Shown here in pieces: positions 4,638 through 59,983 of a DNA stretch of 64,000 bases. Position 1 is the first letter of the stretch. Each line of letters starts with the position of its first letter. The notes under the pieces are model-generated. The model ran no database searches, was not told the DNA's origin, and saw nothing but the letters and a program-made list of their open reading frames with translations. Source of the DNA: Pseudomonas lundensis (GTDB lineage: Bacteria > Pseudomonadota > Gammaproteobacteria > Pseudomonadales > Pseudomonadaceae); NCBI RefSeq assembly GCF_002269125.1, contig NZ_NQKI01000009.1, forward strand, positions 62,001-126,000, given 5' to 3'. The position numbers were made by a program, and so were the translations under genes.

Positions 4638-5408
4638 ATGTTAAAGGACACGCTTAATTACGACATGCTCGCCCGCTACATCCCACGGCCAGGCCGTCAC
4701 GCCCTGCTACCCGAGCTGACCGCCCGGCAAACCGTTGCGCTGCTGTGCCGGGTTTTGTCCCGAGAAGGTTACAACGATCACATTGCTGGCCACATCACTG
4801 TGCGCCAGGATGACGGCACTTACCTTGCCAACCCTTGGGAATTGACGTGGTCAGAAGTAACCGCTTCGGACATCGTGCGGCTCGATGCGCAAGGCCAAGT
4901 GATCGAAGGCGACTGGAACATTACCCCGGCAATCAACCTGCACATCGAGGTGCACGCTGCCCGCCACGATGTGGGGGTGGTCATCCACAATCACCCGCAA
5001 TGGGGCTCGATCTGGTCAGCCGCAGGCCGTATCCCACCGATTTATGACCAGACATCCGCATTGGTCGACACAGCCCCTGTGCTCTATGACGAGTACCGTG
5101 GCACGGTTGAAGACGCTGATCTGGGCCGCGCCGTGGTGGACGCATTGGGCTCGCAAAAATGGGCAATGCTCGCAAATCATGGTGTGTTGATCGTCGCCAA
5201 TGGCATTCGTCAGGCGCACTTGCGAGCGATTACCCTGGAATGGCGCAGCCGTTTGGCATGGCATGTAGAGACGCTAGGTGGTGGCAGCCCCTTGCCCTCA
5301 AACGTAGCCTTGGCCACCGGCAAGCGTACCGACGCCAATGGGTTTCCGTTTTTGTGGGAAGCCATGGCGCGCGAAGAGATACGGCGCGACCCCGGAGTCC
5401 TTGAATAA
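4638..5408 (+). CDS. Class II aldolase/adducin family protein
   Basis: A 256-residue protein of the class II aldolase/adducin fold. The metal-ligand motif is HNHP (His117, His119), and LANHGV supplies a third histidine at His181. NDHIAGHITVR near residue 46 is the conserved N-terminal segment. Start chosen at 4638 because AAGGA sits 7 bases upstream; an alternative ATG at 4590 overlaps the previous stop but lacks a ribosome site. It probably acts with the dioxygenase just upstream. Members act as aldolases, epimerases or decarboxylases; which one applies here is unknown. Confidence 0.87.
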   Translation: MLKDTLNYDMLARYIPRPGRHALLPELTARQTVALLCRVLSREGYNDHIAGHITVRQDDGTYLANPWELTWSEVTASDIVRLDAQGQVIEGDWNITPAINLHIEVHAARHDVGVVIHNHPQWGSIWSAAGRIPPIYDQTSALVDTAPVLYDEYRGTVEDADLGRAVVDALGSQKWAMLANHGVLIVANGIRQAHLRAITLEWRSRLAWHVETLGGGSPLPSNVALATGKRTDANGFPFLWEAMAREEIRRDPGVLE

Positions 5409-5885
5409 CCGTTGGCGGCCAAACAGTACCCTTCCTGCTGCTTGACCGGGAATCTCAAAGCGCGTGGCAGGGCCTTTATGAAGACTGCCGCGCTCGCTGC
5501 ACACTGATCGCAAACCTTCCCCGAGGGTCAAGCTTGCGGGGGGGGGGGGCTGTCACCAAGGTGCGGTCAGTGAAAAAGGAACTCGCAGGGCTTCAACATG
5601 AATCGCCCCGGGTTTCCTAGACACCCTTTTGCCTTAAATGGACTGCCCCCGGCGCCATAGACATCTCCAGCCTATGCTCGCCGACGGTCATCCACATGCG
5701 AGATTTCTCCGTAATCGAAGACGCCGACGCGGCATCATTCATTAAGATGTAACTGCCAAGCACGAGAGCTGAATACAGCACACCAAGCCAACGAAGTGGC
5801 CGCTTGCTCCAGCTTTCGCGCTGCTAGGCATTTGCGACGGGTGAATGCTCCCGGTCATAACCATTCTCCTGGAACGTTGCGTAAC
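5409..5885. other. Gene-poor interval with poly-G tract and an IS end
   Basis: This 477-base gap has no convincing gene. It contains a run of 12 G at 5538-5549, which is slippage-prone, and a solo 40-base IS3-type terminal sequence at 5639-5678. A short minus-strand frame after it can be read but has an internal stop and no family I recognise. Confidence 0.5.
5639..5678 (+). repeat. Solo IS3-family terminal end, inverted copy of 14308-14347
   Basis: Begins TGGACTGCCCCC, a typical IS3-family inverted-repeat tip. Its reverse complement matches 14308-14346 with one mismatch in 39 bases. No transposase is attached here, so it is a leftover end from an insertion or recombination event. Confidence 0.65.
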
Positions 5886-7073
5886 TCAAGGGACTCTAGA
5901 GGATGTTGCATGTGACGTCAGTACCGTCACCGCTGCCCCCAGCAGCAGCACGATTGCACTAGCGAAAAACGTGCGCTGATAGCCGTGACTATCGAACAGC
6001 AGTCCACCCACGGTTGAGCCCAGAGCAATGGACAGTTGAATCACGGCTACCATCAGGCCGCCTCCAGCCTCGGCATTATTTGGCATCGCCTGTGCTACCC
6101 AACTCCACCAGCCCACCGGGGCCGCAGTCGCCAACAGTCCCCATAACCCCAGCAGTGCACCAACAACGAAGGTCGAGTGGCCAAAAGGGATCAGTGCCAG
6201 AGCGATCAAGGCCATCAAGACCGGAATGACTATTAATGTCTGGAACAGGCTGCGCCTTAGAAATCGGCCGATAATCAAGGTACCGATAAAGCCTGTCGAG
6301 CCGATCACCAGTAAGATCAACGAAAGCATGGATACATCGACGCGCGTTACCGTTTCAAGGAAGGGCCGCAGGTAGGTGAATAGCGCAAACTGCCCCATGA
6401 AGAAGGCTCCGCAACCGACCATACCCAGTGCCACTGAACGATTCTTTAACAGCTTGAACACGTTCCCTGATTCCGTTCTACGCGGTCCCACCTTCATGGG
6501 CGGGAGGCTGATGTACATCCAGGTCAGAGCAATCGCCGCGATGGGCACTACACAAAGAAAAGCACCGCGCCAGCCAATAATCGAGCCCAAATAACTGCCC
6601 AACGGTGCGGCAATTACGGTAGCCAGCGCGTTACCGCCGTTGAAGATGGCTAGTGCTTTCGGCACCTGCGGGGCGGGTACCAAGCGCATAGCCGTCGCCG
6701 CGGACATCGCCCAGAAACCGCCAATGACCACACCGATGAGCGCACGGCCGACCATGTAAGTTTGATAGTCGGGGGCCAGCCCGACGATCAAGCCCGAGAC
6801 GGCCATCAACCCGGCCAGTGCCATCAGCAACAGCTTGCGATCGAGGGTTCTGGCAAGCCACGAGATCGACAGGCTAGTTAGCACGGCAAATGCCCCCGAA
6901 ATCGCAATGCCTTGCCCGGTCATCCCTTCGCTAACCTGAAGATCAAGGGCTATCGGCGTCAGCAGGCTGGCAGGCATGAATTCAGAAGCGATCAGGGCGA
7001 AAACACACAGCGTCATTGCAAAGACCCCGCTCCAGTAGGCAGGAGCCTCGTTGCTGGTTGAAACAGTGGCCAT
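5886..7073 (-). CDS. MFS transporter, NepI-like (purine nucleoside efflux)
   Basis: A 395-residue major facilitator protein with 12 predicted membrane segments. Its N-terminal half closely resembles E. coli NepI in layout and wording: SEFMPASLLTPIA, GFWAMSAATAMRLVP, and AAPLGSYLGSIIGWR. NepI exports purine ribonucleosides; the same role is an inference here. Start placed at 7073, where GAGG lies 5 bases upstream and the length equals NepI (396); an upstream ATG at 7109 lacks a ribosome site. Divergent from a LysR gene that probably regulates it. Confidence 0.88.
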   Translation of the reverse strand: MATVSTSNEAPAYWSGVFAMTLCVFALIASEFMPASLLTPIALDLQVSEGMTGQGIAISGAFAVLTSLSISWLARTLDRKLLLMALAGLMAVSGLIVGLAPDYQTYMVGRALIGVVIGGFWAMSAATAMRLVPAPQVPKALAIFNGGNALATVIAAPLGSYLGSIIGWRGAFLCVVPIAAIALTWMYISLPPMKVGPRRTESGNVFKLLKNRSVALGMVGCGAFFMGQFALFTYLRPFLETVTRVDVSMLSLILLVIGSTGFIGTLIIGRFLRRSLFQTLIVIPVLMALIALALIPFGHSTFVVGALLGLWGLLATAAPVGWWSWVAQAMPNNAEAGGGLMVAVIQLSIALGSTVGGLLFDSHGYQRTFFASAIVLLLGAAVTVLTSHATSSRVP

Positions 7074-7134
7074 TGGGTCCTCGCGACTAATCGTATTCAT
7101 GCCGGTCATGGTGGCGAACGAATACTCACGCGAC

Positions 7135-7182
7135 TAGCTAATGAATGCTTAACAAGGCTATAAGTTGAGCTAATCAATAGCT
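7135..7182. promoter_or_regulatory. Likely LysR operator between divergent genes
   Basis: Two related sites lie in the gap: TAGCTAATGAAT at 7135-7146 and AGCTA-ATCAA-TAGCT at 7168-7182, the latter a perfect dyad. Such AT-centred dyads between a LysR gene and its divergent target are the usual binding layout. Confidence 0.5.
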
Positions 7183-7201
7183 GCATAAGGTGCTGCGTAC
7201 C

Positions 7202-8095
7202 ATGGTCAGAGGAAACCTCAACGATCTGCTTTCATTCGTGACAGTGGCGCGTGAAGGCAGCTTCACCCGTGCCGCCGGGATACTGGGAGTTACCCAGTCG
7301 GCACTGAGCCAGGCCATCAGAGGTCTGGAATCGCGCCTGCAAATCAGGTTGCTGACGCGCACCACCCGCAGCGTCTCGCCGACTGTCGCGGGCGAGCGGC
7401 TGCTGCAAGCGATCGGTAATCGCTTCGATGAGATTGAGGCGGAACTGGATAACCTGACGCAAATGCGCGACAAGCCTGCGGGCACCGTACGTATCACCTG
7501 CGGCGATCATGTTCTGCGCACCACGTTGCTACCCAAACTATCTGCGCTGCTCCACGAATACCCGGACATCAACGTTGAGTTCGACGTGAGTTACGGATTC
7601 AGGGACATTGTGGCGGATCGTTTTGATGCAGGTGTGCGCCTGGGCGACACCATCGACAAAGACATGATCGCAGTTCCGATAGGCCCGCAATTGCGGATGG
7701 CTGCTGTCGCCGTGCCAGAGTACTTTGCCAGCCGTGGCATTCCCGAAAACCCGCGCGACCTGATGAACCATAGCTGTATCAACCAGCGTATGCAGACATC
7801 TGGCGGGCTTTATGTATGGGACTTTGAGCAGCGAGGCAAGCAGGTGAACGTGCGTGTAAACGGCCAGCTTATTTTCAACACGTCCAGCCATATCGTAGAT
7901 GCGGCCTTGGCCGGGCTGGGCATCGCGTACCTGCCAGAAGAAGAGTTTGAGCCGCACCTGCGTGAAGGTAGGCTGGAGCGGGTGCTGGAAGATTGGTGCC
8001 CACCGTTCTCTGGCTACTATTTGTATTACCCCAGCCGTCGACAACCGTCCCCCGCCTTTACACTGGTTGCCAATGCATTGCGCAAAGCTGTGTAG
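7202..8095 (+). CDS. LysR-family transcriptional regulator
   Basis: A 297-residue regulator. Its winged helix-turn-helix occupies about residues 5-65 (VAREGSFTRAAGILGVTQSA, then LSQAIRGLESRLQIRLLTRT), followed by a substrate-binding domain of the periplasmic-binding type. A GTG at 7190 could add four residues; ATG at 7202 is preceded by AAGG at 11 bases. It faces away from the NepI-like exporter, which is the most likely target. Inducer unknown; a purine or nucleoside is possible but only inferred from the neighbour. Confidence 0.88.
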   Translation: MVRGNLNDLLSFVTVAREGSFTRAAGILGVTQSALSQAIRGLESRLQIRLLTRTTRSVSPTVAGERLLQAIGNRFDEIEAELDNLTQMRDKPAGTVRITCGDHVLRTTLLPKLSALLHEYPDINVEFDVSYGFRDIVADRFDAGVRLGDTIDKDMIAVPIGPQLRMAAVAVPEYFASRGIPENPRDLMNHSCINQRMQTSGGLYVWDFEQRGKQVNVRVNGQLIFNTSSHIVDAALAGLGIAYLPEEEFEPHLREGRLERVLEDWCPPFSGYYLYYPSRRQPSPAFTLVANALRKAV

Positions 8096-15103: not shown

Positions 15104-15245
15104 TCACATCAAAACAACATCCCCAACGCCTTCGGCGTCCACTTCATAATCATCAACTCCCCACTGACCTCAGCCTTCCCCTGTCGCGAATATCCACCAT
15201 ATCAACGTGAATTCTTCAAACAGTCGGCGAATGACCGGAGTGTCC
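15104..15245 (-). pseudogene. Remnant of dam-type methylase, 3' end
   Basis: Closely resembles the last part of the two intact dam genes of this window (61826 onward and 22990 onward), including the stop-proximal run TCACATCAAAACAACATCCC. Several small deletions break the frame. It ends at a junction with the integrase fragment. Confidence 0.75.
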
Positions 15246-16158: not shown

Positions 16159-17787
16159 ATGGAACTGTTCCTCATCATTTTCGGCTTATGCACCCTTGTG
16201 CTGCTGGTCATCGCAATAAAAAAAACAAAGCTCACAGCCAAGCTAACTGCTGAACTTCGCCAACGAGAGCAGATCATTGATCGCCAGCAGCAAGAAAACT
16301 CAGCACTAATAAGCCGTGTTGACCGCCAGGGGCAGGAAAATACAGCCTTGCAGAATCGCGTCGACGCCCTTTCCAAGTATCAAACCATCATCGATGCGGA
16401 GGCGCACGCCAAAGAACTCAACGCACAAGCTGAGAGTGTTTTCGCCCACTCGAAAATAGCTGCTGCAGTCGAATTGCATGAAGCCAAACGCATAGCAAAA
16501 GAAGAGCTGATTACAAGCGAGATGGAAATGGCTTCAGCTCGCGCAACTGCGAGCAGGATTGTCGAAGCCGCCAACAAACGCGCAGAAGAAATTGCAGGTG
16601 ACGCTTACAGCGCCATGAACCGTGCAAAGGAATTTGCTGACACAGCAAAAGCGATGAAGAACATCATCGAAGGCTACGGTGATGCTTACATAGTGCCGAC
16701 CTACAATCTGCTGGATGATCTTGCAGAAGAGTTTTCCTTCACTGAAGCGGGCCAGAAACTCAAAGCGGCACGTGATATGAGCCGCTGGATGGTCAAGGCT
16801 GTCCGGGCTGCTACTTGTGATTACGCAGAAGCAAATCGACGTGACACGGCCATCCGATTTGTCATCGATGCATTCAACGGTAAAGTCGATTCAATCCTTT
16901 CTAGAAACAAAGCTGATAACCACGGAAAGCTGGAGCAAGAAATTCGGGATGCATTTGCCTTGGTTAACCACAACGGCACCGCATTCAGAAACGCACGTAT
17001 CACAGATGAATACCTCGCCTCGCGCCTAGAGGAACTGAAGTGGGCCGCAACAACTCGCGTGCTGAAAGAGCAAGACCGCGAGGAGCAGCGTCTACTGCGC
17101 GAACAAATACGCGAAGAGGAAAAAGCCCGCCGTGAGTTTGAACGCGCAATGAAAGACGCGGCGAAGGAAGAGGACACCATCAAAAAAGCGATGGATAAGG
17201 TTCTTCAGCAAGCAGCGAATGCCAATGATGCACAGAGGGTAGAGTTTGAAGCCAAGCTGCGGGAGCTGGAAATCAAGCTCCAGGCTGCAGAAGAGAAAAA
17301 CCAACGTGCTCTGTCAATGGCACAGCAAACCAGAACCGGCCATGTTTACGTAATTTCTAACGTTGGTTCGTTTGGCGAGGAGGTCTTCAAAATTGGCATG
17401 ACTCGCCGTCTGGAACCTAAAGACCGCATTCGTGAGCTTGGGGATGCGAGTGTTCCATTCGAGTTCGACGTGCATGCGATGATTTTCAGCGATGACGCCC
17501 CGACCCTCGAGAAAACCCTGCACCGCCACTTCCTGCGCCGCCAGATGAACAAGGTCAATCCGCGTAAGGAGTTTTTCCGCCTTGGGATCAGTGAGATTCG
17601 AGCTGAGCTCGAAATCCTTGGCGTTGAGACCCTTTGGACGATGGCAGCTGAAGCTCTCGAATATCGCGAGACCACTCGCATTGAGCAGCAGATCCAGGAA
17701 AACCCGGTGATTGAGCAGCAATGGACGCGCCATCAACTTGAACAGGAAGTAGAGAACGAGTTCGAGGAAGAGATGCATTCGGCATAA
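16159..17787 (+). CDS. DUF4041 / T5orf172 (GIY-YIG) domain protein
   Basis: A 542-residue protein with an N-terminal membrane anchor (about residues 2-20), a long coiled coil, a DUF4041 region around residues 150-300, a second charged coiled coil, and a C-terminal T5orf172 domain of the GIY-YIG nuclease superfamily from about residue 390. The nuclease-like motifs are GHVYVISN, FKIGMTRR, an Arg in DRIRELGD and a Glu in LEKTLHRHF. Such proteins are frequent phage and defence-island cargo; the activity is not established. It stands alone, 222 bases before the HD/methyltransferase genes. A membrane-tethered nuclease acting on incoming DNA is a plausible inference. Confidence 0.82.
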   Translation: MELFLIIFGLCTLVLLVIAIKKTKLTAKLTAELRQREQIIDRQQQENSALISRVDRQGQENTALQNRVDALSKYQTIIDAEAHAKELNAQAESVFAHSKIAAAVELHEAKRIAKEELITSEMEMASARATASRIVEAANKRAEEIAGDAYSAMNRAKEFADTAKAMKNIIEGYGDAYIVPTYNLLDDLAEEFSFTEAGQKLKAARDMSRWMVKAVRAATCDYAEANRRDTAIRFVIDAFNGKVDSILSRNKADNHGKLEQEIRDAFALVNHNGTAFRNARITDEYLASRLEELKWAATTRVLKEQDREEQRLLREQIREEEKARREFERAMKDAAKEEDTIKKAMDKVLQQAANANDAQRVEFEAKLRELEIKLQAAEEKNQRALSMAQQTRTGHVYVISNVGSFGEEVFKIGMTRRLEPKDRIRELGDASVPFEFDVHAMIFSDDAPTLEKTLHRHFLRRQMNKVNPRKEFFRLGISEIRAELEILGVETLWTMAAEALEYRETTRIEQQIQENPVIEQQWTRHQLEQEVENEFEEEMHSA

Positions 17788-18009: not shown

Positions 18010-19311
18010 ATGGAATTCCACGACATTTTACATGGGCTCATGCGGTTCTCTGATGAGAATCTAACCTCACTACTCGCAGACCTTATAGACAGTCCAGAGA
18101 TCCACCGACTGAGAAACATGAGGCAAATGAACTTTGATGTGCCGCTCATCCAAGAATTAGGAAGGTCCCGCCGACTTCCCCATTCTATAGGCGTAACATT
18201 TTTGGCTGTTGAGCTAGCACACAAAGCCAATCTTAAATTAAGCGACACTAAAGCTCTCTTGGCAGCAGCTTTACTCCACGATGCAGCCATTCCTCCATAT
18301 GGGCACCTAGTTGAGTCCGAGCTTAAGTTCATCACGCCTGATTTCAGCCATGAAGAAAATTTGGCAAAAATCATCCGAGGCACACTGGGAAGTGGAAACT
18401 CATATCAACACATTATAAGAAAAAAAGAGCTAAAACTAACTCCTATATTACAAAAACATGGAGTCGATATTGAGTCAGTTATAAACATAGTATGCCCGAA
18501 GAAAGGTACTACCAGCCCTATTTCTGCCGATATTGATATAGACAACATTGATAACGTGCACCGCATGGCGGCGATGTTAGGTTGGGAAGGAGCAAAAGAA
18601 AACATTAAAATCATACGCAACTCTATGCGTCTAAAAGGTTTAAGCGGGCTAATTTTCACAAAGGAAGCTATTGAGCCTTTGCACAAATGGCTAGAGTTTA
18701 GAGAGCGTATTTATACAATGATAATTGCTCATCCCGAGTGCATCCCTTACAACGCACTACAAACTGACCTTGTCCGACTAGCAGTTGACCACGACATCAT
18801 AACGCCTACAGATTGGTACATGACAGAGCCGGAGTTTGAAGAAAAATTACGTGAAAAAGGAAGCGTCACTGAAGAGTTAGGCTGGCAACTCATATCAGGC
18901 TGCGAATACAAACTCGTTGACTATGTATGGTTCAAAAACTTTTCCTCTCCTAAAAAGCTTAAAAACAAGGAGATATCAGACTACATGAGTAGCAACGTAG
19001 CTGAGACAGTTAAAAACTCCGGCTACTTTGTATGGAACGAAAAAGGCTTGATCAGCAGAGCCATTAAAATCACCCTTGATGATAACAAAATCATCCATTT
19101 GGGCAAAAATTCTACCAGCTGTATGATAGCACTTGTTAAAAAGAGTCCATCTCAAGCCAAACTGACTAAAGCTCAGTCTAACAAATGGCGGCGGGCGATT
19201 ATAAAATCCTTCACCGACCTTTTTGAACCGGAAAGCTTTGACTTTGATTTCCCCGAAACATACACAGGAAGTTTTTACTCCAAGACGGACGAGCTTCAAC
19301 TTGAACATTAA
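18010..19311 (+). CDS. HD-domain phosphohydrolase, dNTPase-like
   Basis: A 433-residue protein with an HD metal-binding core. His58 in RRLPHSIG, His90-Asp91 in LLHDAAIPPYGH and a later Asp in the SADIDIDNID run form the expected H...HD...D set. The segment EIHRLRNMRQM resembles the RLRxxxQL stretch of dGTPase/SAMHD1 enzymes, so it may hydrolyse (d)NTPs. ATG at 18010 follows AAGGG; TTG at 17998 is a weaker option. Its end overlaps the start of a DNA methyltransferase frame, so the two are probably translationally coupled. AT-rich compared with the host, pointing to transfer. Confidence 0.75.
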   Translation: MEFHDILHGLMRFSDENLTSLLADLIDSPEIHRLRNMRQMNFDVPLIQELGRSRRLPHSIGVTFLAVELAHKANLKLSDTKALLAAALLHDAAIPPYGHLVESELKFITPDFSHEENLAKIIRGTLGSGNSYQHIIRKKELKLTPILQKHGVDIESVINIVCPKKGTTSPISADIDIDNIDNVHRMAAMLGWEGAKENIKIIRNSMRLKGLSGLIFTKEAIEPLHKWLEFRERIYTMIIAHPECIPYNALQTDLVRLAVDHDIITPTDWYMTEPEFEEKLREKGSVTEELGWQLISGCEYKLVDYVWFKNFSSPKKLKNKEISDYMSSNVAETVKNSGYFVWNEKGLISRAIKITLDDNKIIHLGKNSTSCMIALVKKSPSQAKLTKAQSNKWRRAIIKSFTDLFEPESFDFDFPETYTGSFYSKTDELQLEH

Positions 19312-20485
19312 TGAACAACTTGAAAGTGTTGACTGGTCATTTCCAAACCTAGGCAACTCTGGAATACACTCTTTACATTGGTACCCTGCTACCTATGTAG
19401 CAGCAATTCCAGGAACGTTAATACCTGTTTTTACAGAAAAAGGGGGGTTGGTGCTTGATCCTTTTAACGGTTCTGGAACCTCTGGCGTTGAAGCTATTCG
19501 GCTAGGCCGACACTTTATAGGAATGGATACAAACCCTGTTGCTTTACTAATGAGCCAGGCCAAACTTCATTTCCCTGATCCAAAAAGCTTACGCAAGCAC
19601 ATTGACACTATAATCAGAGATTCTGAAAAACTATTTTCCACGCAAGAAACAATTCCGCACCCACACACCGAAGAACTATCGGCGTGGTATCACATAGACA
19701 CTCTCAATACTTTAAATAGATTACTGACGGCCATCTTAAAAATCAGCAATAATGATACAAGACGCTGTCTCCTTGCGATATTTTCAGGGGTCCTAAAAAA
19801 CACCTCTTCACAAGGGCGTCACTGGGGATGGGTTTGCGACAATGTAAAACCTAAGCCTTTCGAAATAACTTTCAAGGACGCATTATCTACTTTCATAAAT
19901 GCTGCCAATGACTATATAAAAATCACTGACCAGTCCCACAAACTGGTACAAGTTCACTCTGAGAACGAGACTAGGAAACAAACTAGATCTAGATACAGAC
20001 TGATTCACGGCGATTGCGTCACCAACATGCAACAACTTCCTGATGAGCACATAGATTTTATTGTAACCTCTCCGCCCTATTACGGGGTTGCGGACTATGT
20101 AAAATCGCAAAGACTTAGTTATTTGTGGTTTGATAAAGACGAGCTAGCACCAGAGCAACTCGGATATAGAGACTTTGAGAAACTACGTTCTCACGAGTCA
20201 GGGGCCAGATCAAATCGAACCAGAAAAAATAGTCACGAATTATACATGGCCTTTATCTGCTCATTCTTTACGCAATGCCATCGCGTACTAAAGAAAGGCT
20301 CATCGATGGCTCTCGTCGTGGGTGAATCCGGAGCTAGAGCATCCACAACTAACGAGCTCATCCTTGCAGCCGAAGCAGAAGGATTCCACTTAAGCCTACG
20401 AAGAGAAAGAGATATAAAATCGAGCCGACGCCGGCTAATGGCCAGTGTTAAATGCGAAGACATTTTGATTTTTATAAAAAAATAA
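19301..20485 (+). CDS. DNA methyltransferase with TSPPY motif (N4-cytosine/N6-adenine class)
   Basis: About 394 residues. The S-adenosylmethionine motif LDPFNGSGT lies near residue 52 and the catalytic motif TSPPYYG near residue 256, an order different from most N4C enzymes. TSPPY points to N4-cytosine methylation, though N6-adenine cannot be excluded. The start is uncertain: TTG at 19301 places the protein at the conserved ESVDWSF opening and overlaps the HD gene by 11 bases; the frame is open back to 19223. No restriction nuclease gene is adjacent, so it is either a solitary protector enzyme or partner of the HD protein. Confidence 0.8.
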   Translation: MNINEQLESVDWSFPNLGNSGIHSLHWYPATYVAAIPGTLIPVFTEKGGLVLDPFNGSGTSGVEAIRLGRHFIGMDTNPVALLMSQAKLHFPDPKSLRKHIDTIIRDSEKLFSTQETIPHPHTEELSAWYHIDTLNTLNRLLTAILKISNNDTRRCLLAIFSGVLKNTSSQGRHWGWVCDNVKPKPFEITFKDALSTFINAANDYIKITDQSHKLVQVHSENETRKQTRSRYRLIHGDCVTNMQQLPDEHIDFIVTSPPYYGVADYVKSQRLSYLWFDKDELAPEQLGYRDFEKLRSHESGARSNRTRKNSHELYMAFICSFFTQCHRVLKKGSSMALVVGESGARASTTNELILAAEAEGFHLSLRRERDIKSSRRRLMASVKCEDILIFIKK

Positions 20486-20504
20486 TTTTCCCATGGAGTG
20501 GAGA

Positions 20505-21242
20505 ATGAGTGATCGCGACTTTGAAATGATTGAGCCTGATGTTCTCAAGGTAAAAGGGAACTACAAAGGTCCGGAGGAGACAGAGTTTCGAGGAAGAACC
20601 TATTATCGATTCATGGATTTTTTTTATACCTACACCCCCTATCTCGACGAACTAAACCCTGACGACGTCAGCCACTTATGTCGAGCGCGAGCAAGCTTCC
20701 CCGACCTAATTAGCCAGACTAATGTAGATGTGCGCGAACTATTCAGGCAAGTTGCAAAAGAGCTCGAACCTAAAACGTTTCTAGAAATCGGAGCTGGGCC
20801 CAATCCTATTTTTTATGACCAGCCTGAAAATAGTACTGGATATGTAATATCAGATGCTGATCCAGAAGTAATCAAAAAACTTTGCAACAACAAAAACAAC
20901 TGCCATATTTTTTCAAACAGCCAATACACACTCCCCTTCGGCGATGACCACTTCGAGTTAGTAATGGCAGTTTTCGTGTTGCACTTCCCATTCTACCCTA
21001 ATCAACTAACTGAGCTCTATCGCACAATGAGCCCGCTGGGCGCAATGGTTGCGAACGTCTATCGAAGGACGGTTGAGGCAAGAAGAAAACTTTCTGAAGA
21101 TATAGAAAAAGCCGGCTTTAACATTCAAAAAGTCCATGACACCAAAAATCTTTGCAGAGACCACGAATACTGGATACTTGGGAAAAACCTAACTCATATA
21201 TACAACTGTGCCAAAACGCTAGAGCGAATCAGCACAAATTAA
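20505..21242 (+). CDS. Class I SAM-dependent methyltransferase
   Basis: A 245-residue protein with a Rossmann methyltransferase core. Motif I is FLEIGAGPNP near residue 88, the acidic end of strand 2 is ISDADPE, and the motif IV region is FELVMAVFVLHFP. The absence of a DNA methylase catalytic motif suggests a small-molecule or protein substrate. ATG at 20505 follows GGAG by 6 bases; ATG at 20493 is possible. It follows the DNA methyltransferase by 19 bases, so probably the third gene of the same operon. Confidence 0.75.
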   Translation: MSDRDFEMIEPDVLKVKGNYKGPEETEFRGRTYYRFMDFFYTYTPYLDELNPDDVSHLCRARASFPDLISQTNVDVRELFRQVAKELEPKTFLEIGAGPNPIFYDQPENSTGYVISDADPEVIKKLCNNKNNCHIFSNSQYTLPFGDDHFELVMAVFVLHFPFYPNQLTELYRTMSPLGAMVANVYRRTVEARRKLSEDIEKAGFNIQKVHDTKNLCRDHEYWILGKNLTHIYNCAKTLERISTN

Positions 21243-21249
21243 CCGGCAC

Positions 21250-21279
21250 ATCAAGCTATCCAATCCTGGATAGCTTGAT
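21250..21279. terminator. Perfect 12-bp hairpin between convergent genes
   Basis: ATCAAGCTATCC and GGATAGCTTGAT flank a six-base loop. It lies at the meeting point of the plus-strand methyltransferase operon and the minus-strand kinase gene, inside the last codons of the latter. No T run, so a bidirectional terminator or RNA-stabilising hairpin is likely rather than certain. Confidence 0.5.
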
Positions 21280-21805
21280 CGACCTCTAACTGTAGTTGCT
21301 CTACACTGCCGTCGTTGTATATGACCCGATCGGCCTTGAGCAAAAGCTGAGGCACCTCTGCCTCACTCCTCGCATACTTCATTTCATCAAACTTATTTCG
21401 AGTTAGATTCTTATCTTTAAATTGATCAGAATCTCGGACAGAGCGCTCGAAGCGATTTCCAGCAGAAGCGTCCACGCCTAACAACCTGAATCCAGGCACC
21501 TCAGAATAACGCACCAACTCTTCTGGATATCTAATACCATCTACAACAATTCTACCACGATGCAGGTTTTCCACTCTATATCTTGCGATCAGATCATTCC
21601 CAAAAATGCCAAAAATTGAATTCCCCAGCGTTCCAAGATTATCTCTAGTCTGGTCCAATCCAATATCAGCTAGTACTTTCCTCAATACATCCGAATTGGA
21701 GGCTTGCGTATAGCCATACCGCTCGACAAGGTATTTAGTGACTGTAGACTTCCCGGCCCTTATTGGGCCAATCAAACCTATTATTTCAGGAAACTCGGAG
21801 GCCAT
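21251..21805 (-). CDS. P-loop kinase, deoxynucleotide-kinase-like
   Basis: A 184-residue P-loop protein. The Walker A motif is GPIRAGKST at residues 13-21, and VVDGIRYPEE resembles the DGIR signature of phage (deoxy)nucleotide monophosphate and dephospho-CoA-type kinases. The frame opens to 21862, but ATG at 21805 gives the standard beginning just before the P-loop. It overlaps the end of the upstream membrane gene by 25 bases, so they are co-transcribed leftward, convergent with the methyltransferase operon. Substrate unknown; a nucleotide is the best guess. Confidence 0.7.
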   Translation of the reverse strand: MASEFPEIIGLIGPIRAGKSTVTKYLVERYGYTQASNSDVLRKVLADIGLDQTRDNLGTLGNSIFGIFGNDLIARYRVENLHRGRIVVDGIRYPEELVRYSEVPGFRLLGVDASAGNRFERSVRDSDQFKDKNLTRNKFDEMKYARSEAEVPQLLLKADRVIYNDGSVEQLQLEVDQAIQDWIA

Positions 21806-22659
21806 ATCAACACCATCACTATATATATATAAACTGCGACTAGCACTACCATACCTATACACGCTTTAACGCTTGGAGGCGTTTTTCGCATCGTATTATC
21901 TCTGGTCGCCTCCGCTGGAATCCAGTTAGTTGTGTAAAACTCTAGCTGCTTACCAAGAACAAAAAACAACAAAATTGACAACAGAGCTATGTCTCCCAGA
22001 ACAGACTCATAAGGAGTCGCTTCGGAAGCCGAAACACCACTAATCAACCAAGCGCCGAGAATACAAATAAAAGATATCGAGCAGTATGCTACAAGCCCCG
22101 TCAGATATGATAACATATTAGATGGCACTGCAACTCCTTGCTCGATTCTCGGACTAGTTACAACGTCAACGATAAAATCCCAAACAAAATAGACTGAGAA
22201 CACCCACATCAACTGAAGGGCTTCCGGCCTTGCCGACGTAATCCCAACATAGGCAGATATCGTCTTTTTACTGGTATATTCTTGAAAGTTCTGCTCAACC
22301 GTTTTGACGATCGCAAAATAAAGAACAACCAAAAACACTTCAACAAGCAATATAACAAACTCTTTTGAAAAAATAGAAGATATATCCTTTTTCAGTCCTC
22401 CCGCTTGAGACTTAGACCACATAACCCAACTCATTGAAACTAACAGAAGAGCTAGCAGGGAGTGCGAAAGCGTTGCAAATAGTGCACCTCTCTCAGCAAG
22501 CAAGTTATAAAACATTTTTGTCGGACTTGAAGCCGAGTCCCAACCGCCTGTAACCACAAACAATAGTTCAGATATTTGTTGAGCCACAGTTGCCGCCACA
22601 AGCGCAAACAACATAGCTATAAATGTCCGTCTCAATTCAATTTGAGTTGTAGTGCTCAC
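21781..22659 (-). CDS. Multi-pass membrane protein, unknown function
   Basis: A 292-residue protein with about seven hydrophobic segments (near residues 12-35, 62-82, 100-120, 145-168, 180-205, 215-240 and 265-285). GTG start at 22659 has GGGAG six bases upstream. I recognise no family. It is coupled by overlap to the nucleotide-kinase-like gene, so the two may form a functional unit in which the membrane protein is sensor or effector. AT-rich, with hallmarks of transferred cargo. Confidence 0.6.
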   Translation of the reverse strand: MSTTTQIELRRTFIAMLFALVAATVAQQISELLFVVTGGWDSASSPTKMFYNLLAERGALFATLSHSLLALLLVSMSWVMWSKSQAGGLKKDISSIFSKEFVILLVEVFLVVLYFAIVKTVEQNFQEYTSKKTISAYVGITSARPEALQLMWVFSVYFVWDFIVDVVTSPRIEQGVAVPSNMLSYLTGLVAYCSISFICILGAWLISGVSASEATPYESVLGDIALLSILLFFVLGKQLEFYTTNWIPAEATRDNTMRKTPPSVKACIGMVVLVAVYIYIVMVLIWPPSFLK

Positions 22660-22948: not shown

Positions 22949-23764
22949 TCAAGCAACGTCCACGTGAGTTGAAAATAGCCCACTATAGATACCAGGCTCC
23001 CAATTCATAACAATCAACTCCCCCGTAACCTCAGCCTTCCCCTGCCGCTGATTCGTGGTCGTATACCGGATCTCGGTCGTCTCAAAATGAAACCCTTCAA
23101 ACACCCGCCGAATGTCCGGGTGGTCGTTAATACTGACCATCACCTTGCCTTTGCAGCACCGCATAAAGTCAGCCATGCGTTCGTAGTTTTCAAACGGGAA
23201 GTCCACGCCGTAGCCAGCGGTCTGCCAGTAAGGTGGATCCATGTAGTGGAAGGTGTGTGGCCGGTCGTAGCGCTCGGCGCACTCAAGCCAGGGCAGGTTT
23301 TCGACGTAGGTACCGGACAAACGCTGCCAGGCTGCAGACAAGTTTTCTTCAATGCGCAGCAGGTTGATTGCTGGAGCTGTCGTTGCGGTACCGAAGCTTT
23401 GACCTGAGACCTTGCCACCGAAGGCATGGTGCTGCAGGTAGAAGAAACGAGCGGCGCGCTGGATGTCGGTCAGGGTTTCGGGGCGGGTCATTTTTTGCCA
23501 CTCGAATATCTGCCGTGAGCTGAGTGCCCATTTGAATTGACGCACGAATTCTTCCAGATGGTTCTGCACCACGCGGTACAGGGTGACCAGGTCGCCGTTG
23601 ATGTCGTTGAGCACTTCGACTGGAGCAGGCTGCGGGCGCAGGAAGTACAGCGCCCCGCCGCCGGCGAAGACTTCGACGTAGCATTCGTGGGGTGGGAACA
23701 AGGGGATAAGGCGGTCGGCCAGGCGGCGTTTGCCGCCCATCCAAGGAATGATGGGTGAGGACAT
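22949..23764 (-). CDS. dam: DNA adenine methylase (D12 class), prophage 1 copy
   Basis: A 271-residue N6-adenine methyltransferase of the Dam/D12 class. The opening PIIPWMGGKRRLADRLIPL, the SAM motif FAGGGAL and the catalytic DPPY are all present. It is a close paralogue of the gene at 61831-62625; the last 15 or so residues differ (GIYSGLFSTHVDVA here), indicating a recombination junction near 22990. ATG at 23764 is preferred; a TTG at 23773 is possible. In phages such enzymes protect DNA from host restriction or mark packaging sites. GATC specificity is likely but not proven. Confidence 0.88.
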   Translation of the reverse strand: MSSPIIPWMGGKRRLADRLIPLFPPHECYVEVFAGGGALYFLRPQPAPVEVLNDINGDLVTLYRVVQNHLEEFVRQFKWALSSRQIFEWQKMTRPETLTDIQRAARFFYLQHHAFGGKVSGQSFGTATTAPAINLLRIEENLSAAWQRLSGTYVENLPWLECAERYDRPHTFHYMDPPYWQTAGYGVDFPFENYERMADFMRCCKGKVMVSINDHPDIRRVFEGFHFETTEIRYTTTNQRQGKAEVTGELIVMNWEPGIYSGLFSTHVDVA

Positions 23765-23914
23765 TGTTTGCAAGACCTTTACTGTATGGATAGACAGGTG
23801 CTAGGCTCGCTCCGCTTTGTGCACAGAGCAGGAGCCTTGACTGGGCTTGCAGGACTACTCTGCGGGTTTGGTGGCCGGGCTGGATGTTGACGCATCCAGC
23901 TTCGGCCGCTCCTT

Positions 23915-50764: not shown

Positions 50765-52414
50765 ATGGACTTTCAAGTACTACCTCCGAGAACAGCTCCC
50801 AACTACGATAGCGAAGATTCATTCGCATTAATCCAAAACAACTGGAATGACTACAGCTTTGAGACACAATACAGTCTTGTTTACTTGGGCCCAGCAAGTA
50901 AAAGAGGCCACAATTTAATCGGCACTGTAAAGATACTTAAGCGTGGTCAAACAGAACTAGACACCCTCCAAATCACAGAAGACTTTAACGCTCTTGACGG
51001 TAATTTTATTTCTGTAGGCCAATCTCTCGATTATTATCAGCGTCTATCAGCGCTAACCGAAGACTTGCGAATTAAAGTTTTAGAATCGCTGAACGACTTT
51101 GTACACAACCCAAGCTTCGGAAATGAATTTCGGACCGAGCCAGGCTGGAAAACCTCTTTATTCAGAGATTTCTCAGAAAACGAAAGCTTCCTGCTAACTG
51201 CCACTTCATTACTGAACAAAACATTTGAAGGGCTTTTAGACTCTAACTTAAAGTTTACATTTCATGTTGCAGGCTGGGATCAAAGTATAAATTTTGACTA
51301 TTCGCTGCCTGATTTTGTAAATAGAGTGAGCGGTATATCTCACCCTATACCGAACAGAATCATCTCTCTTATAGGAAGAAACGGCTGCGGAAAAAGCACT
51401 CTACTCGCACGCCTTGCGCGTATTGCCTACGCCACAACCAAAGATAGAAATAGTCTTAACTTTATAACTGCAGGCAAAATTACTCCTGAAGGAATTGGAT
51501 TCCCTAGAATCATTACTGTTTCTTATAGTGCATTTGATAGCTTTCGGCTTCCCGGCATTAAGCCTGAGCAAGAAGGAGAACCCGATGAAAGACTACAAAT
51601 AATAAAAGATCTTGAAGAAGGCGGAGGACGATTTATTTTTTGCGGACTCAGAGATATAGCTACCGAACTTAAAATCACAATCGAAAGCGAGTCAAATAAC
51701 ACTTTATCCCCTTTGATCTCCGACAAGGTCAAGACAACCCTATTAAAGCCTGTAGACCGCCTTGCTAAAGAATTCTATGACACCCTAACTATTGTCAAAA
51801 GGAATAGAGCTTCGCACATTTTAGACAGAGCATTAAATTGCATTTCTAGCGACGCTTCCTTCTCAAGTTTCAAACATATTCTCACAACACAAAAACTACT
51901 TGAAAACGATCCCATCAATCTATTTATTGACTGGAGCACTGGTCACAAAATAGTCATGCAGATCCTGACAAATTTAGCTGCCCACACCACTCAGTCGTCA
52001 CTAATTTTAATAGATGAGCCAGAGACTCATCTTCACCCACCGTTACTTGCAGCATTAATGCATGCTGTCAGGATACTACTAAACATAAAAAAAGCTTTTG
52101 CCATTGTGGCAACACACTCTCCAGTTGTACTGCAAGAGTCTTTAAAAACTCATACCTTCATAATTAGGCGAGAAGGCAGTAAAACAACGATAGCACAACC
52201 CCCAAAGGAAACTTTTGGTGAAAACATTGGAACTCTCACTGGAGATGTTTTTGGCCTTGACTCAACAGTGACAGATTTCCATACGATACTGGATCGACTG
52301 ATAGACGAATACAAAAGCGTCCAAACTATAGAGTATTTCTTCCAACCTAACGGTTTAAGCATGCAAGCCAGAGCTTATGTTATGAGTCAACTGGCGAGCA
52401 AGGGGTTGCTATAA
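50765..52414 (+). CDS. ptuA: Septu-like ATPase PtuA
   Basis: A 549-residue ABC/OLD-type ATPase. Walker A is GRNGCGKS at residues 204-211, and Walker B with the switch Glu is LILIDEPETHLHPP near residue 415, followed by IVATHSP. The adjacent gene, starting directly after its TAA, encodes an HNH nuclease. This pairing defines Septu, an anti-phage system. Much more AT-rich than its neighbours, with foreign codon use. It lies between the repressor and the early operon rather than in a usual cargo site. Assignment to Septu rests on domain pairing; no functional data here. Confidence 0.82.
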   Translation: MDFQVLPPRTAPNYDSEDSFALIQNNWNDYSFETQYSLVYLGPASKRGHNLIGTVKILKRGQTELDTLQITEDFNALDGNFISVGQSLDYYQRLSALTEDLRIKVLESLNDFVHNPSFGNEFRTEPGWKTSLFRDFSENESFLLTATSLLNKTFEGLLDSNLKFTFHVAGWDQSINFDYSLPDFVNRVSGISHPIPNRIISLIGRNGCGKSTLLARLARIAYATTKDRNSLNFITAGKITPEGIGFPRIITVSYSAFDSFRLPGIKPEQEGEPDERLQIIKDLEEGGGRFIFCGLRDIATELKITIESESNNTLSPLISDKVKTTLLKPVDRLAKEFYDTLTIVKRNRASHILDRALNCISSDASFSSFKHILTTQKLLENDPINLFIDWSTGHKIVMQILTNLAAHTTQSSLILIDEPETHLHPPLLAALMHAVRILLNIKKAFAIVATHSPVVLQESLKTHTFIIRREGSKTTIAQPPKETFGENIGTLTGDVFGLDSTVTDFHTILDRLIDEYKSVQTIEYFFQPNGLSMQARAYVMSQLASKGLL

Positions 52415-53272
52415 ATGTGGAGACTAAACACTCCTAATATAGAAATTACAGACCGCGAACTGTTAACCGCTCTAACTCTCGTAAACGGTAACCCTGTATA
52501 CCCTATAAGCGACAACCAAAGACAACGCATTCGCGAGCTGTATCAAGAGTACGACAATAACTCTGGAAACCCCCATGACAACCTAAAAGGCGAGGATATT
52601 GTTTTAGATCTAAGACAAGCCATACACGACGCCTATGGCTCACAAGTGCAGATCAGAGGGCGACTAGAGGACTATAGAGATAAAATCAAGCTGAATGCAG
52701 AGTGCTGCCCATATTGCGGCTTCGGAGCTATTACTGATTTAGACCACCATCTACCACGGTCAACGTATAAAGCCCATGCAATTTATGCTAGAAACCTAAT
52801 TCCAAGCTGCAGTGCCTGTAATAATCTTAAAAGGGCCAAAGCCGGAGATACGCCGGACACACAATTCTCTCATGTGTATTTTGGGCAAGTACCACAAGAA
52901 GTTTTTTTAGTTGCATCTGCCACAGCAAATATTAGCGGGCTCGTTGTAACCTACTCCATTCAAAAGACACCAAACCTAAATGATGATGAATTCCAAAGAC
53001 TTAAATATCAATTTTCAGCGCTTAATCTGAATGATAGATATGTCAGTCAAGTAAATATTCACATCGGATCTTTGAGAACAAGCATAGAGCTAATGGCTGT
53101 ACATGGTGAAAATGCGTTGCGCAGTTACCTTCAGCAATGCTATGAGCAATCGCGCCAAGACTTCGGAATGAATCACTGGAGATCCGCACTTTTAAAAGCT
53201 CTAACCGAATCTGATGAGTTCTGCCAGGGGGCATACCGGTTTTGCTTTGGAAGAAAAGACATGGCTGTGTAA
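52415..53272 (+). CDS. ptuB: Septu-like HNH nuclease PtuB
   Basis: A 285-residue HNH endonuclease. The zinc knuckle CCPYCG (Cys97/98-Cys101), the catalytic LDHHLPRS and the second zinc pair CSACN, with NLIPSC between, form a complete HNH motif. The start follows the PtuA stop with no gap (TAA-ATG). In Septu, PtuB is the effector nuclease held in complex with PtuA. Slightly longer than typical PtuB. Its stop codon overlaps a repressor-type operator. Confidence 0.82.
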   Translation: MWRLNTPNIEITDRELLTALTLVNGNPVYPISDNQRQRIRELYQEYDNNSGNPHDNLKGEDIVLDLRQAIHDAYGSQVQIRGRLEDYRDKIKLNAECCPYCGFGAITDLDHHLPRSTYKAHAIYARNLIPSCSACNNLKRAKAGDTPDTQFSHVYFGQVPQEVFLVASATANISGLVVTYSIQKTPNLNDDEFQRLKYQFSALNLNDRYVSQVNIHIGSLRTSIELMAVHGENALRSYLQQCYEQSRQDFGMNHWRSALLKALTESDEFCQGAYRFCFGRKDMAV

Positions 53273-56935: not shown

Positions 56936-58128
56936 ATACGAACTGAGCCGCCGCCCCCTTTAAAACAAGGGCTTACGCCCTACTTATTTTTTCTCTGTAC
57001 CATTTTCGTACCAGCAAACTTTCGCTTACCTCTCCCTAAAGCTCCAGTATTGAGCCTTCTCGTCGCTCACAGCACATCCAGTGCAGCAAACAATATCGAT
57101 CCAATACATCTACCCAATGCATCTATCCCATACCATGCACCCTGATGCTATCGGGAGGTTGAACGGGAGATTCGAAACCGACAGCCTCCACTTTTCAACA
57201 AGGCCACCGGTCTATAGAGACTGTAGAGGAGCGGTGTGCGCCAAAGCGTTCCCATGAGTTTGTGCGCCAACCTGTGAATCTGCCGCCTGATAGGGCATGT
57301 GCGTTTTTTGGGGAAAGCCATCGGAAAAAGGTAAGAGCGGTAAGTTCTTGGGTAAAACGTCTGGAACGCCCGGATTCAAAGGCCTACAGCCGAAACGGAG
57401 CAGGTAATATCTGAGTAACCTGCAAGTAATATAATTACTCTTTCATTAAGTAATCATCTATAAGCATCAGACCCTTATAAATCAATCACTTGCGATTAAA
57501 TTACCTTGCACATCACTCAAAATAACTTATCCGTGTAATACGCCAAAGCCAGCAAATACGGGGCTTCTAGCAACCTCTAGACCTGTTGTGCTATTGAATT
57601 ACCTTTTTCCGTCAGTGCTCCTGAAAATCCGAGCTGATGGAATTGTTCGTGAACGGCTACTATCGGCCAGAAGCGGCCCCTCAATGCTCGTCATCGAACA
57701 TCTAATCTTCACCAAAGACATCAGCGCTATGTACAGGGTTCGCCCGCGTCGATCCAGTGCCCTGCCTTATGCCGGACTTTTCGGTTTTGCGCTCATTTTA
57801 TGCAATGCCGTGAATCGCCTCTCGTGCATCATCCATGGGCTCCTGCTGCCATCACCCCATCCTTAGGCTGGAATATGAGGCGGTAGCGTTTTTATAAACA
57901 CCAGGAAAAGCCATCATGCATTGATGGCTAGCCCACATTTTTGTATAAAGGATTTCCACTTCACCTTGTTGTTCCAGTATATTCGCTGTTGCTCCTACAG
58001 CGTCTATCTGGCAGATTTCGCCTTAAAGTAGTTTGAGTCATATGTAACAGTGACGTACGTAACAGGGAACGATCCGGAGCTGAGGTCAGCTTAGCGATTT
58101 TGAATGAAATAACAAAAAAGGAGTGACG
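56936..58128. other. AT-rich non-coding left flank of prophage 2
   Basis: About 1.2 kb with no convincing gene. It contains TGTGCGCCAA twice near 57234 and 57262, and the 15-base palindrome AGTAAT-ATA-ATTACT at 57425-57439. A 92-codon plus frame at 57588 has neither a ribosome site nor a recognisable family. Confidence 0.4.
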
Positions 58129-59667
58129 ATGGCTACGTTCATTTTTCGGCGAAACAGTAAGATTGGCAACTTAGATGCGGAAACTGATACATTTCTAAAA
58201 AACTGTTTTCTCGAAACAGATATTTATTCCAACTTATTGAGCTTTGATGATGGGATAGACTTTGCAAAGCGCATTGTAGTAGGAAGAACAGGATCTGGCA
58301 AAACGGCTTTGATAAAGCAATTGTCAGAGAATCCGAAAATCAAAAAGCATATGGTCATTGAAGCAGAATCAACCGTATTCGAGCACATTAAAAATAACGT
58401 ATTTATATCAAAATTAATTGACAACAACATTGATTTGAGGATTTTTTATAAGTCACTGTGGATTCATGTTCTCCTTGTAAGGGTGGTAGAGCTACTGTAC
58501 CCGGGTAAAACATTCTTTGAAATGATTTTAGACCTACCGGTAAGCAGCAAAAAAAAATACAACGCATCGCTAGCCAAAGAATATGTTGAAAAATTTAAAG
58601 ACAATTTCTTTAACGAAAGTATAGTTAGTGAAATAACAGAAAAGATGCAGACTGAACTGGCGGGCGGTATAAATATGCCCCCCGTCAAATTAGACGGCAA
58701 AGGTAGTGCAGAGCTTACTGAAAAAATACAACGCGCTACTGCGCAATATGTAAGTACAGAATTACTACGAAAGCAAAAGGAACTTATCAAGGTTCTGACG
58801 CAAGAAAAATCAAGAGAAGGTCAGCACCGCTTCCTCATCAGTATTGATGACCTAGATAAATCTTGGTTAAGTTCTAGCGAAATACGTTACGACTTTATTA
58901 ATGCTTTACTGGACGCTTTTAAAGAGCTTCTAGATATTAAGACTGTGAAAATAATAATATCGGTCCGCACTGACATTATAAGAGGCATTTATCTAAAAAA
59001 TTTGAGACAAGAAGAGAAGGACAAGTCTCTTATCCTAGACATTCACTGGGATAAGTTGGAGATACAGGAGATTCTTGACAAAAGAATAGACTTCCTTATA
59101 AAGGATAAATACCAGTCAAATGCTACGACAAAATTTTCTGACATTTTTGATTTTCTTATAAAAAATGAACGATCGCAAGATTTCATCCTTAGACGTACCA
59201 TGCTTAGGCCGCGTGACGCCATCGACTTTGTAAACTTATGCCTTTCTGAAGCAGATGGATCTACAGTCCTAAATGAAGATCTGGTGTTGGAGGCAGAGGA
59301 AAAATTCTATGTCTCAAGAAAACAGGCATTGTGCAAAGAGTGGGCAAGTATTTATCCGAACATCACTAAATATATTGATGCGCTCGCTGAAGTAGCCGCG
59401 CCGTCCTTTACATGTGAAACGCTGAACGAAAAAGCTGACAAAATACAAACTAATGTTATCAGCCATCTTGCAAGCAATATTGATCCCGTGACAAACGATA
59501 TTATAAACGACATAAGCGCACTTATAAACGTTTGGTTCGTTGTAGGTGTTGTCGGCATTAAAAAATCTGAGACATTAATCATCTACTCAAGCTTCGAAAA
59601 GCAAGAGCTAGATGTTAGCGACTATAAAAAAGAATTTAGTATTCATCCATTGTTTTTTCGATACTAA
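58129..59667 (+). CDS. P-loop ATPase, Sll1717-like
   Basis: A 512-residue P-loop NTPase. Walker A is GRTGSGKT at residues 52-59 and Walker B is FLISIDDLDKSW near residue 235. The rest is helical, with no membrane segments. The overall shape (SFDDGIDFAKRIVVGRTGSG start, the sensor-like IIISVRTDIIRG) matches ATPases annotated as Sll1717 family, which often occur in defence islands. ATG at 58129 follows AGGAG by five bases. Strongly AT-rich. The next gene, with a SEC-C motif, may be a partner. Role in immunity is inferred. Confidence 0.7.
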   Translation: MATFIFRRNSKIGNLDAETDTFLKNCFLETDIYSNLLSFDDGIDFAKRIVVGRTGSGKTALIKQLSENPKIKKHMVIEAESTVFEHIKNNVFISKLIDNNIDLRIFYKSLWIHVLLVRVVELLYPGKTFFEMILDLPVSSKKKYNASLAKEYVEKFKDNFFNESIVSEITEKMQTELAGGINMPPVKLDGKGSAELTEKIQRATAQYVSTELLRKQKELIKVLTQEKSREGQHRFLISIDDLDKSWLSSSEIRYDFINALLDAFKELLDIKTVKIIISVRTDIIRGIYLKNLRQEEKDKSLILDIHWDKLEIQEILDKRIDFLIKDKYQSNATTKFSDIFDFLIKNERSQDFILRRTMLRPRDAIDFVNLCLSEADGSTVLNEDLVLEAEEKFYVSRKQALCKEWASIYPNITKYIDALAEVAAPSFTCETLNEKADKIQTNVISHLASNIDPVTNDIINDISALINVWFVVGVVGIKKSETLIIYSSFEKQELDVSDYKKEFSIHPLFFRY

Positions 59668-59983
59668 ATCTCTTGTGCATTTAGTTGCTGCCTGATCTCA
59701 GGTTTGATAAAGCTTGTTTCGATAATTAGACCTATAGGGTGCGACAATCGAAGGCATACCTGAGTTTAATTTCTGGTAGGTTCTGCCAGATCTGATAGGC
59801 AGCTTCTGGCCGGTTGCAGCCTCTCCCGGAAGATAGGGAAATTCTTAGAGGACCGGAGCAGGCACTTGGCTACGGTCGATGCTGTACAATAATCCATAAA
59901 TAGGTTAAGACGAGTGAGTTCCTGAATTTTCAGCTTAAGATAGCTACGCACAGCCCTTCAGCTAATTGAATTGGACAAGCATT

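Follow-up and report, generated by a model that had tools for sequence, protein, structure and literature searches.

A five-gene module in a Pseudomonas lundensis prophage

The window analyzed here is a stretch of 64,000 nucleotides from Pseudomonas lundensis (contig NZ_NQKI01000009.1, positions 62,001 to 126,000). In a prophage on this window we studied a module of five genes, named HD, MT1, MT2, KIN and MEM, which spans window positions 18010 to 22659:

18010 to 19311, plus strand: HD, predicted SAMHD1/EF1143-related HD hydrolase of the DxDNxDN clade (ATG start; PF01966, E-value 3e-07)
19301 to 20485, plus strand: MT1, predicted amino-type (N6-adenine or N4-cytosine, N6A/N4C) DNA methyltransferase (PF01555, N6_N4_Mtase, E-value 6.9e-22)
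20505 to 21242, plus strand: MT2, predicted protein of the class I S-adenosylmethionine (SAM) methyltransferase fold, with an N-terminal beta segment (Methyltransf_11, E-value 1.9e-04)
21251 to 21805, minus strand: KIN, predicted P-loop kinase, deoxynucleoside-monophosphate-kinase-like (ATG start; AAA_17, E-value 1.7e-08)
21781 to 22659, minus strand: MEM, predicted seven-helix membrane protein (GTG start; hydropathy and model)

An earlier reading of the DNA letters (the sequence-only reading) had described the same five genes as AT-rich prophage cargo, with HD overlapping MT1 and KIN overlapping MEM. Gene calls and family matches agreed with this description. The G + C content of the module was 0.426, against 0.512 and 0.560 in the 2-kb flanks, and prophage genes were recognized from position 22949 on. 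HD and MT1 shared 11 bases, given the assumed TTG start of MT1 at 19301, and the end of MEM covered the start of KIN by 25 bases. TTG codons near the same place were chosen in the seven other loci described below. An alternative upstream ATG is open for MT1 of locus L004 (at 9283), as is a further upstream ATG for MT2 (at 20493). With the starts as chosen, the overlaps were 8–20 bases for HD/MT1 and 13–46 bases for KIN/MEM, each in 8/8 loci.

Co-conservation of the five genes

With HD of the window as query, we found five loci in a genome collection and two in a viral collection (L002 to L008). All five genes were present in the same order and orientation in seven out of seven (8/8 with the window). 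The hosts were Pseudomonas (P. saxonica for L002), Acinetobacter, Exilibacterium and an Alteromonadaceae metagenome-assembled genome, next to two viral contigs. Identity to the window proteins was 50–90% for HD, 52–87% for MT1, 31–72% for MT2, 37–70% for KIN and 35–83% for MEM.

Among 5.8 billion proteins there were 186 relatives of HD (120 of them listed), 72 of MEM and 33 of MT2, with about 8000 candidates scored in each of the HD and MEM searches. Source names of the listed HD relatives included Acinetobacter, Vreelandella, Variovorax, Acidovorax and Stenotrophomonas, and those of MEM included P. aeruginosa. Clusters of HD, MEM and MT2 were paired when their longest contigs had an identical size, with sizes shifted by 1–50 as control. 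Twenty-five of the 72 MEM clusters had a partner among the 120 listed HD clusters (shifted control: mean 0.29, maximum 3), and for 20 of the 33 MT2 clusters the partner was an HD or a MEM cluster (shifted control: mean 0.15, maximum 2). Identical longest-contig sizes are indirect evidence that the genes sit on shared contigs. Over the 25 paired clusters, the protein distances of HD and MEM correlated with r = 0.92, a value reached by none of 2000 permutations (maximum 0.39). The five genes are a real co-inherited module, in line with the sequence-only reading, which had taken them as one unit; the lack of co-conservation that would have spoken against that reading was not seen.

Catalytic and pocket residues of HD

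Two stretches of HD carry the residues discussed here:

18277 to 18315, plus strand: HDAAIPPYGHLVE, with the metal-binding His-Asp, the catalytic His99/Glu102 and Ile94 (I94 in 121/121 relatives examined)
18535 to 18555, plus strand: DIDNIDN signature, with the metal Asp178, and Asn179 and Asn182 where Arg and Tyr are usual (residue comparison)

A profile search of the PDB with HD matched 2o6i (E-value 7.1e-16), which we take to be an EF1143-type structure; SAMHD1 was also among the solved structures matched. Residues were compared in three groups: the window with the 120 listed relatives (121 proteins), the HD proteins of four distant HD-MT1 pairs (L013, L016, L017 and L018), and 18 other HD proteins (L022 to L039). 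The last group came from a search at phylum level, in which 30 of 398 genomes matched. Eleven further weak matches without a locus were left out, and for four of the 18 places longer stretches were fetched (L040 to L043).

R55, H58, H90, D91, H99, H114, D178 and R185 were common to all three groups, except that R55 and H58 each fell in a gap of one row, which may be the same row in both cases. E102 was found in all proteins compared except one distant protein, which had Gln. The four metal ligands (H58, H90, D91 and D178) were kept in the 121 relatives examined, one of them gapped at H58, and the catalytic His99/Glu102 pair in 121/121. By offset this pair matches H126/E129 of CloA (PMC12265719). 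HD catalysis is thus probably intact.

The pocket differed. The D.DN.DN (DxDNxDN) motif was present in 120/121 of the window and its relatives and in 4/4 distant pairs, and in 0/18 of the other HD proteins. Residue 179 was Asn in 125/125 module and distant proteins, vs Arg (15) or Thr (3) in the others. At residue 182, Asn was found in 124/125 (120/121 for the module), vs Tyr (15) or Gly (3). Residue 186 was Met in 121/121 module proteins and Met, Leu or Val overall, vs Asp (15) or Thr (3). Residue 94 was Ile in 121/121 module proteins, Thr, Ser or Ile in the distant pairs, and His in 18/18 others. In CloA, the metal Asp is D242, the base is contacted by Y246 (+4), and a phosphate by residue 243 (+1, printed as D243) (PMC12265719). 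These offsets place the base contact at N182 and the phosphate contact at N179 of HD. Because the pocket residues of other HD deoxynucleoside triphosphate (dNTP) hydrolases are replaced, an ordinary dNTP is doubtful as substrate; the substrate choice of HD is probably altered, toward hydrolysis of something else. The earlier label “dNTPase-like” fits the catalytic residues that were kept and fails at the pocket.

Outside the studied clade, we saw an HD protein adjoining a nucleotidyltransferase-like gene (recognized by eye) in L019 (7848–9941) and L040 (3445–6175). No MT1 relative was found beside the HD protein of L019. These loci are possibly Clover-like.

MT1 and the HD-MT1 pair

MT1 carried the following methyltransferase motifs:

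19457 to 19480, plus strand: motif I, DPFNGSGT (D53, P54, F55 and G57–T60 invariant in 8 sequences)
20066 to 20080, plus strand: catalytic motif IV, TSPPY (invariant in 8 sequences)

An MT1-family gene lay directly downstream of HD in 12/12 fetched D.DN.DN loci, that is, the eight module loci including the window and the distant loci L013, L016, L017 and L018. The other partners varied among the distant loci. In L016 they were an FAD-type oxidoreductase and a small P-loop protein without Pfam match (both recognized by eye). L017 had an FAD-type oxidoreductase, together with a dCTP-deaminase-like domain (PF22769, E-value 5.4e-13) to which a P-loop stretch was fused. L018 had a PP-loop-ATPase-like protein (by eye; PADLOC QatC, E-value 0.0018), a second DNA methylase and a P-loop protein that matched AAA_18 below the cut-off (E-value 1e-04). 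L013 had an AIR-synthase-like enzyme (PF00586, E-value 8.3e-19) and two proteins without Pfam match, one of them HIT-like (by eye). Relatives of MT2 or MEM were not found in these four loci (E ≤ 1e-4). Since the pair recurs with other partner genes in the four distant loci, HD-MT1 is probably the older core.

MT1 also matched 17 plasmid records, of which seven were fetched (L049 to L055); an eighth, H55, is the record of L016. No HD relative was found within the fetched stretches of L049 to L055. Three of them (L050, L053 and L054) encoded two consecutive DNA methyltransferases, one being the MT1 relative, and a phospholipase-D-like gene.

MT2, KIN and MEM

MT2 scored 22.4 bits with Methyltransf_11, for a cut-off of 21.2. 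KIN had an intact P-loop and matched phrog_139 (E-value 4.5e-17) and, in the PDB, the AdkA-like structures (3lw7, E-value 5.3e-11).

MEM had no match to a Pfam family. Its model (predicted local distance difference test score, pLDDT, of 84.9) had seven long helices, and hydropathy agreed with a membrane protein. The first helix reads F-I-A-M in the window, and F13, M16, F18 and A19 were invariant in 40 sequences. Fold comparison alone pointed to TMEM175 channels. MEM differs from these by a seventh long helix and by the missing F-S/T-D motif in helix 1, which we take to be the mark of TMEM175 and by which the TMEM175 proteins for comparison were chosen. With Foldseek, neither the PDB nor viral models yielded a match at E ≤ 0.001. 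The sequence tests were negative as well. The sequence profile of MEM gave no match in the PDB at E ≤ 10. TMEM175 was absent among the 25 of 32 families listed in a scan of 40 MEM members, and hhalign against 10 bacterial TMEM175 proteins returned a probability of 0.1. We did not retain MEM as a TMEM175-family channel, other than as a lead.

Comparison with known defense systems

The five-gene combination is absent from the defense catalog searched, PADLOC 2.0, which gave no system-level match; the earlier remark that no named system has this gene set stands. Nor was the set described in the open-licence literature searched (titles and abstract openings). Single genes did match: HD the dGTPase model, MT1 methyltransferase models (25 of 74 matches listed) and KIN the dCTPase model, with no match for MT2 or MEM.

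HD has in common with the anti-phage dGTPases and with CloA of the Clover system (PMC12265719) the HD fold region, the metal ligands and the His-Glu catalytic pair. Its match to the PADLOC dGTPase model was weak (E-value 4e-06), and it scored 27.3 bits with the NCBIfam dGTPase subfamily, far short of the cut-off of 152.35. HD differs from both at four positions: the Arg, Tyr, His and Asp seen in most of the 18 other HD proteins compared are Asn, Asn, Ile and Met in HD. No nucleotidyltransferase, the CloB partner in Clover, scored over the cut-off among the five module proteins.

The PADLOC model named dCTPase, presumably the anti-phage dCTP deaminase, was matched by KIN in 8/8 members, at positions 156–322 of 630 (best E-value 4.1e-16). 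Unlike in that system, no deaminase domain was among the Pfam matches of the five proteins. MT1, with DPFxGSGT and TSPPY, resembled type II restriction-modification methyltransferases (PADLOC MTase_II, best E-value 2.9e-24), but its partner is an HD hydrolase, and none of the five proteins matched a Pfam nuclease family; in principle, an HD protein could itself serve as the nuclease.

Genomic settings

The lysis and tail gene block of the prophage ends with the module, which adjoins a Dam-like gene. Rightward, the prophage genes from 22949 on encode the Dam-like and a GH19 chitinase-like protein, and beyond them tail, tape measure, baseplate, head protease, portal, terminase and primase proteins. 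The dam-like gene on the right is complete (22949–23773). On the left of the cargo, a 25-residue stretch at 15112–15186 matched the 3′ end of this gene (60% identity). A partial dam-like 3′ end on one side and a complete gene on the other suggest that recombination beside dam exchanges the cargo.

Directly upstream of the module, at 16159–17787, there is a homolog of PD-Lambda-1 (PADLOC, E-value 2.4e-110), a prophage-borne defense gene, which is separate from the module. A 74-residue match to it remains in L002. No PD-Lambda-1 match was found in the fetched DNA of L003 to L008.

The window, L002, L007 and L008 are prophage or viral contigs, and the last three have Dam, Rz-like and lysozyme-like genes in common with the window. 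In L004, TnsA-like, transposase, TniB and TniQ genes (Tn7-like transposition genes) adjoin the module, in L005 an integrase gene lies on its right and in L003 a DUF927 gene on its left; the DUF927 neighbor may point to a satellite-like setting. Several copies had defense or toxin-antitoxin-like neighbors, namely an AbiV-like gene in L003, an HNH restriction-enzyme-like gene in L006, a PIN domain in L005 and RelB/ParE in L008, which counts in favor of the earlier reading. FAD-type oxidoreductase, dCTP-deaminase-like and MazG-like genes adjoin the module of L006 on the other strand (5046–7515). In single BLASTP comparisons with L017, the dCTP-deaminase-like proteins matched with an E-value of 2e-18 and the FAD-type proteins with 2e-08. 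Close to the module copy of L002, at 6686–7408, a gene with an Nmad2 (nucleotide modification associated) domain was found (E-value 5.6e-32).

One further feature lies inside the module:

21250 to 21279, no strand: hairpin where the convergent genes meet (13 perfect pairs, loop of 4 bases), covering the KIN stop codon

When the 90-base segment was shuffled 500 times by mononucleotides, the best inverted repeats had a mean of 4.3 and a maximum of 10 pairs, vs 13 in the real sequence. The sequence-only reading had noted a hairpin of 12 bases between the genes; the hairpin covers the KIN stop and does not lie between them. No T-run follows it in the window sequence. Two of the seven other loci had a comparable hairpin, L002 with 11 bp and L003 with 10 bp. 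A conserved terminator was rejected, the hairpin being present in 3/8 loci.

Past the prophage late genes, the window has further AT-rich stretches, at 51000–53000 and 58000–60000 (G + C content 0.37–0.42). An open reading frame at 50765–52414 matched PHROGs of unknown function; it also had a weak match to an ABC-transporter family.

Proposed function and alternative explanations

The reading we favor, with a probability of roughly 0.42, is that the module is an anti-phage defense system, in which HD hydrolyses a non-ordinary nucleotide and is partnered by a methyltransferase marking host DNA. Gene context points to an anti-phage function, because the module is a mobile, co-inherited unit near defense genes in several loci, with enzymes for nucleotides and for methylation. 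HD would be the nucleotide-acting effector, destroying a nucleotide other than an ordinary dNTP, while MT1 would set the marked (self) state of host DNA. KIN, as a relative of deoxynucleoside-monophosphate kinases, may make or sense the nucleotide consumed by HD, and MT2 may modify a partner. MEM could be a membrane effector or anchor, tied to KIN via the conserved gene overlap. A link to nucleotides would be supported by the family matches of KIN, by the P-loop or dCTP-deaminase-like partners in L016 to L018, and by the dCTP-deaminase-like and MazG-like neighbors in L006.

Several observations weigh against this defense system. The KIN profile at E ≤ 1e-4 matched module loci only. No KIN relative is thus detectable among the P-loop proteins of the distant loci. 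We dropped this candidate kinship; its loss weakened the nucleotide link, lowered our confidence in the favored reading and slightly raised that in the first two alternatives below. The dCTP-deaminase-like proteins of L017 and L006 gave no match to the PADLOC dCTPase model and were rejected as such, and the nucleotide genes of L006, being on the opposite strand, may be unrelated to the module. The substrate proposed for HD would follow from replaced residues, two of which, 94 and 186, we take to be pocket contacts from their roles in SAMHD1, and 3/18 other HD proteins likewise deviate from the usual pocket residues. MT1 middle-versus-flank ratios overlapped (0.61–0.88 vs 0.43–0.67, with three restriction-type relatives as control, n = 3), did not separate a fixed from a variable target and were not used as evidence. 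The roles of MT2 and MEM are predicted from fold class only. Among ten selected flanking proteins, covering part of the flanks and leaving out L007, three matched PADLOC. The module is also rare: HD was found in 3/398 genomes of the genus, 2/369 of the class (one of the distant L013 type) and 1/390 of the order, its own genome counted.

The main rival to a nucleotide-acting HD is an HD that acts as a restriction nuclease, cutting unmethylated DNA while MT1 protects, with KIN, MT2 and MEM as add-ons. MT1 follows directly after HD in 8/8 module loci, overlapping it with the starts chosen, and the pair is the unit in common with the four distant loci, one of which (L018) has a second DNA methylase. 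The plasmid relatives of MT1 whose neighbors are a further methyltransferase and a phospholipase-D-like gene (L050, L053 and L054) have what we take to be a restriction-type layout, and loss of phosphate- and base-contact residues could admit polynucleotides to the HD pocket. On the other hand, HD is acidic, with an isoelectric point of 6.5 in the window (5.7 for the C-terminal part) and a module mean of 6.4 vs 7.1 for the 18 other HD proteins. This does not favor a DNA-cutting role, although it is still compatible with one. Several partner genes are nucleotide-related and not nucleases or helicases, and the nearest solved structures of HD include the SAMHD1 dNTPases. We consider a restriction function unlikely.

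Rather unlikely, too, is a pathway of base or nucleotide modification outside defense, in which MT1 and MT2 would make a modified base and KIN and HD adjust the nucleotide pool. It would accommodate the FAD-type oxidoreductases and the PP-loop-ATPase-like, AIR-synthase-like and dCTP-deaminase-like proteins of the distant loci or L006, as well as the Nmad2 gene near the L002 copy. However, the Pfam matches of the five genes included no family known to us to hypermodify bases, and MEM is hard to place in a pathway of this kind. Prophage counter-defense had been offered by the sequence-only reading as an alternative to defense. In this case, MT1 would shield the phage's DNA against restriction by the host, and the remaining genes would aid phage replication. 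The position of the module at the end of the lysis and tail block, beside the Dam-like gene, agrees with it. Yet five-gene copies also occur next to Tn7-like genes (L004) and an integrase (L005) and in L003 and L006, and one copy lies in an Alteromonadaceae contig. A tblastn search with HD at E ≤ 1e-5 was negative both for 50,697 phage records and for plasmid records. Support for this explanation is weak, and we regard it as very unlikely. A genome-breakdown alarm is a long shot: MT1 would methylate bases of the host chromosome, a virus that degrades this DNA would free the tagged mononucleotides, KIN would phosphorylate them into a signal to which MEM responds by opening the membrane, and HD, with a pocket reshaped to fit the tagged nucleotide, would clear the signal in healthy cells. 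If it were true, a cell that defends itself by sensing nucleotides it has marked would represent a new principle.

Implications

These results define an uncataloged, tightly co-inherited five-gene system. At its center, the HD-methyltransferase pair has a clear signature, DxDNxDN beside a TSPPY methyltransferase, and swaps partner genes among loci, so that it may be used as a probe for further systems. The HD signature predicts a phosphohydrolase with intact catalysis and a different substrate. The identity of this substrate would tell whether cells employ non-standard nucleotides in defense.

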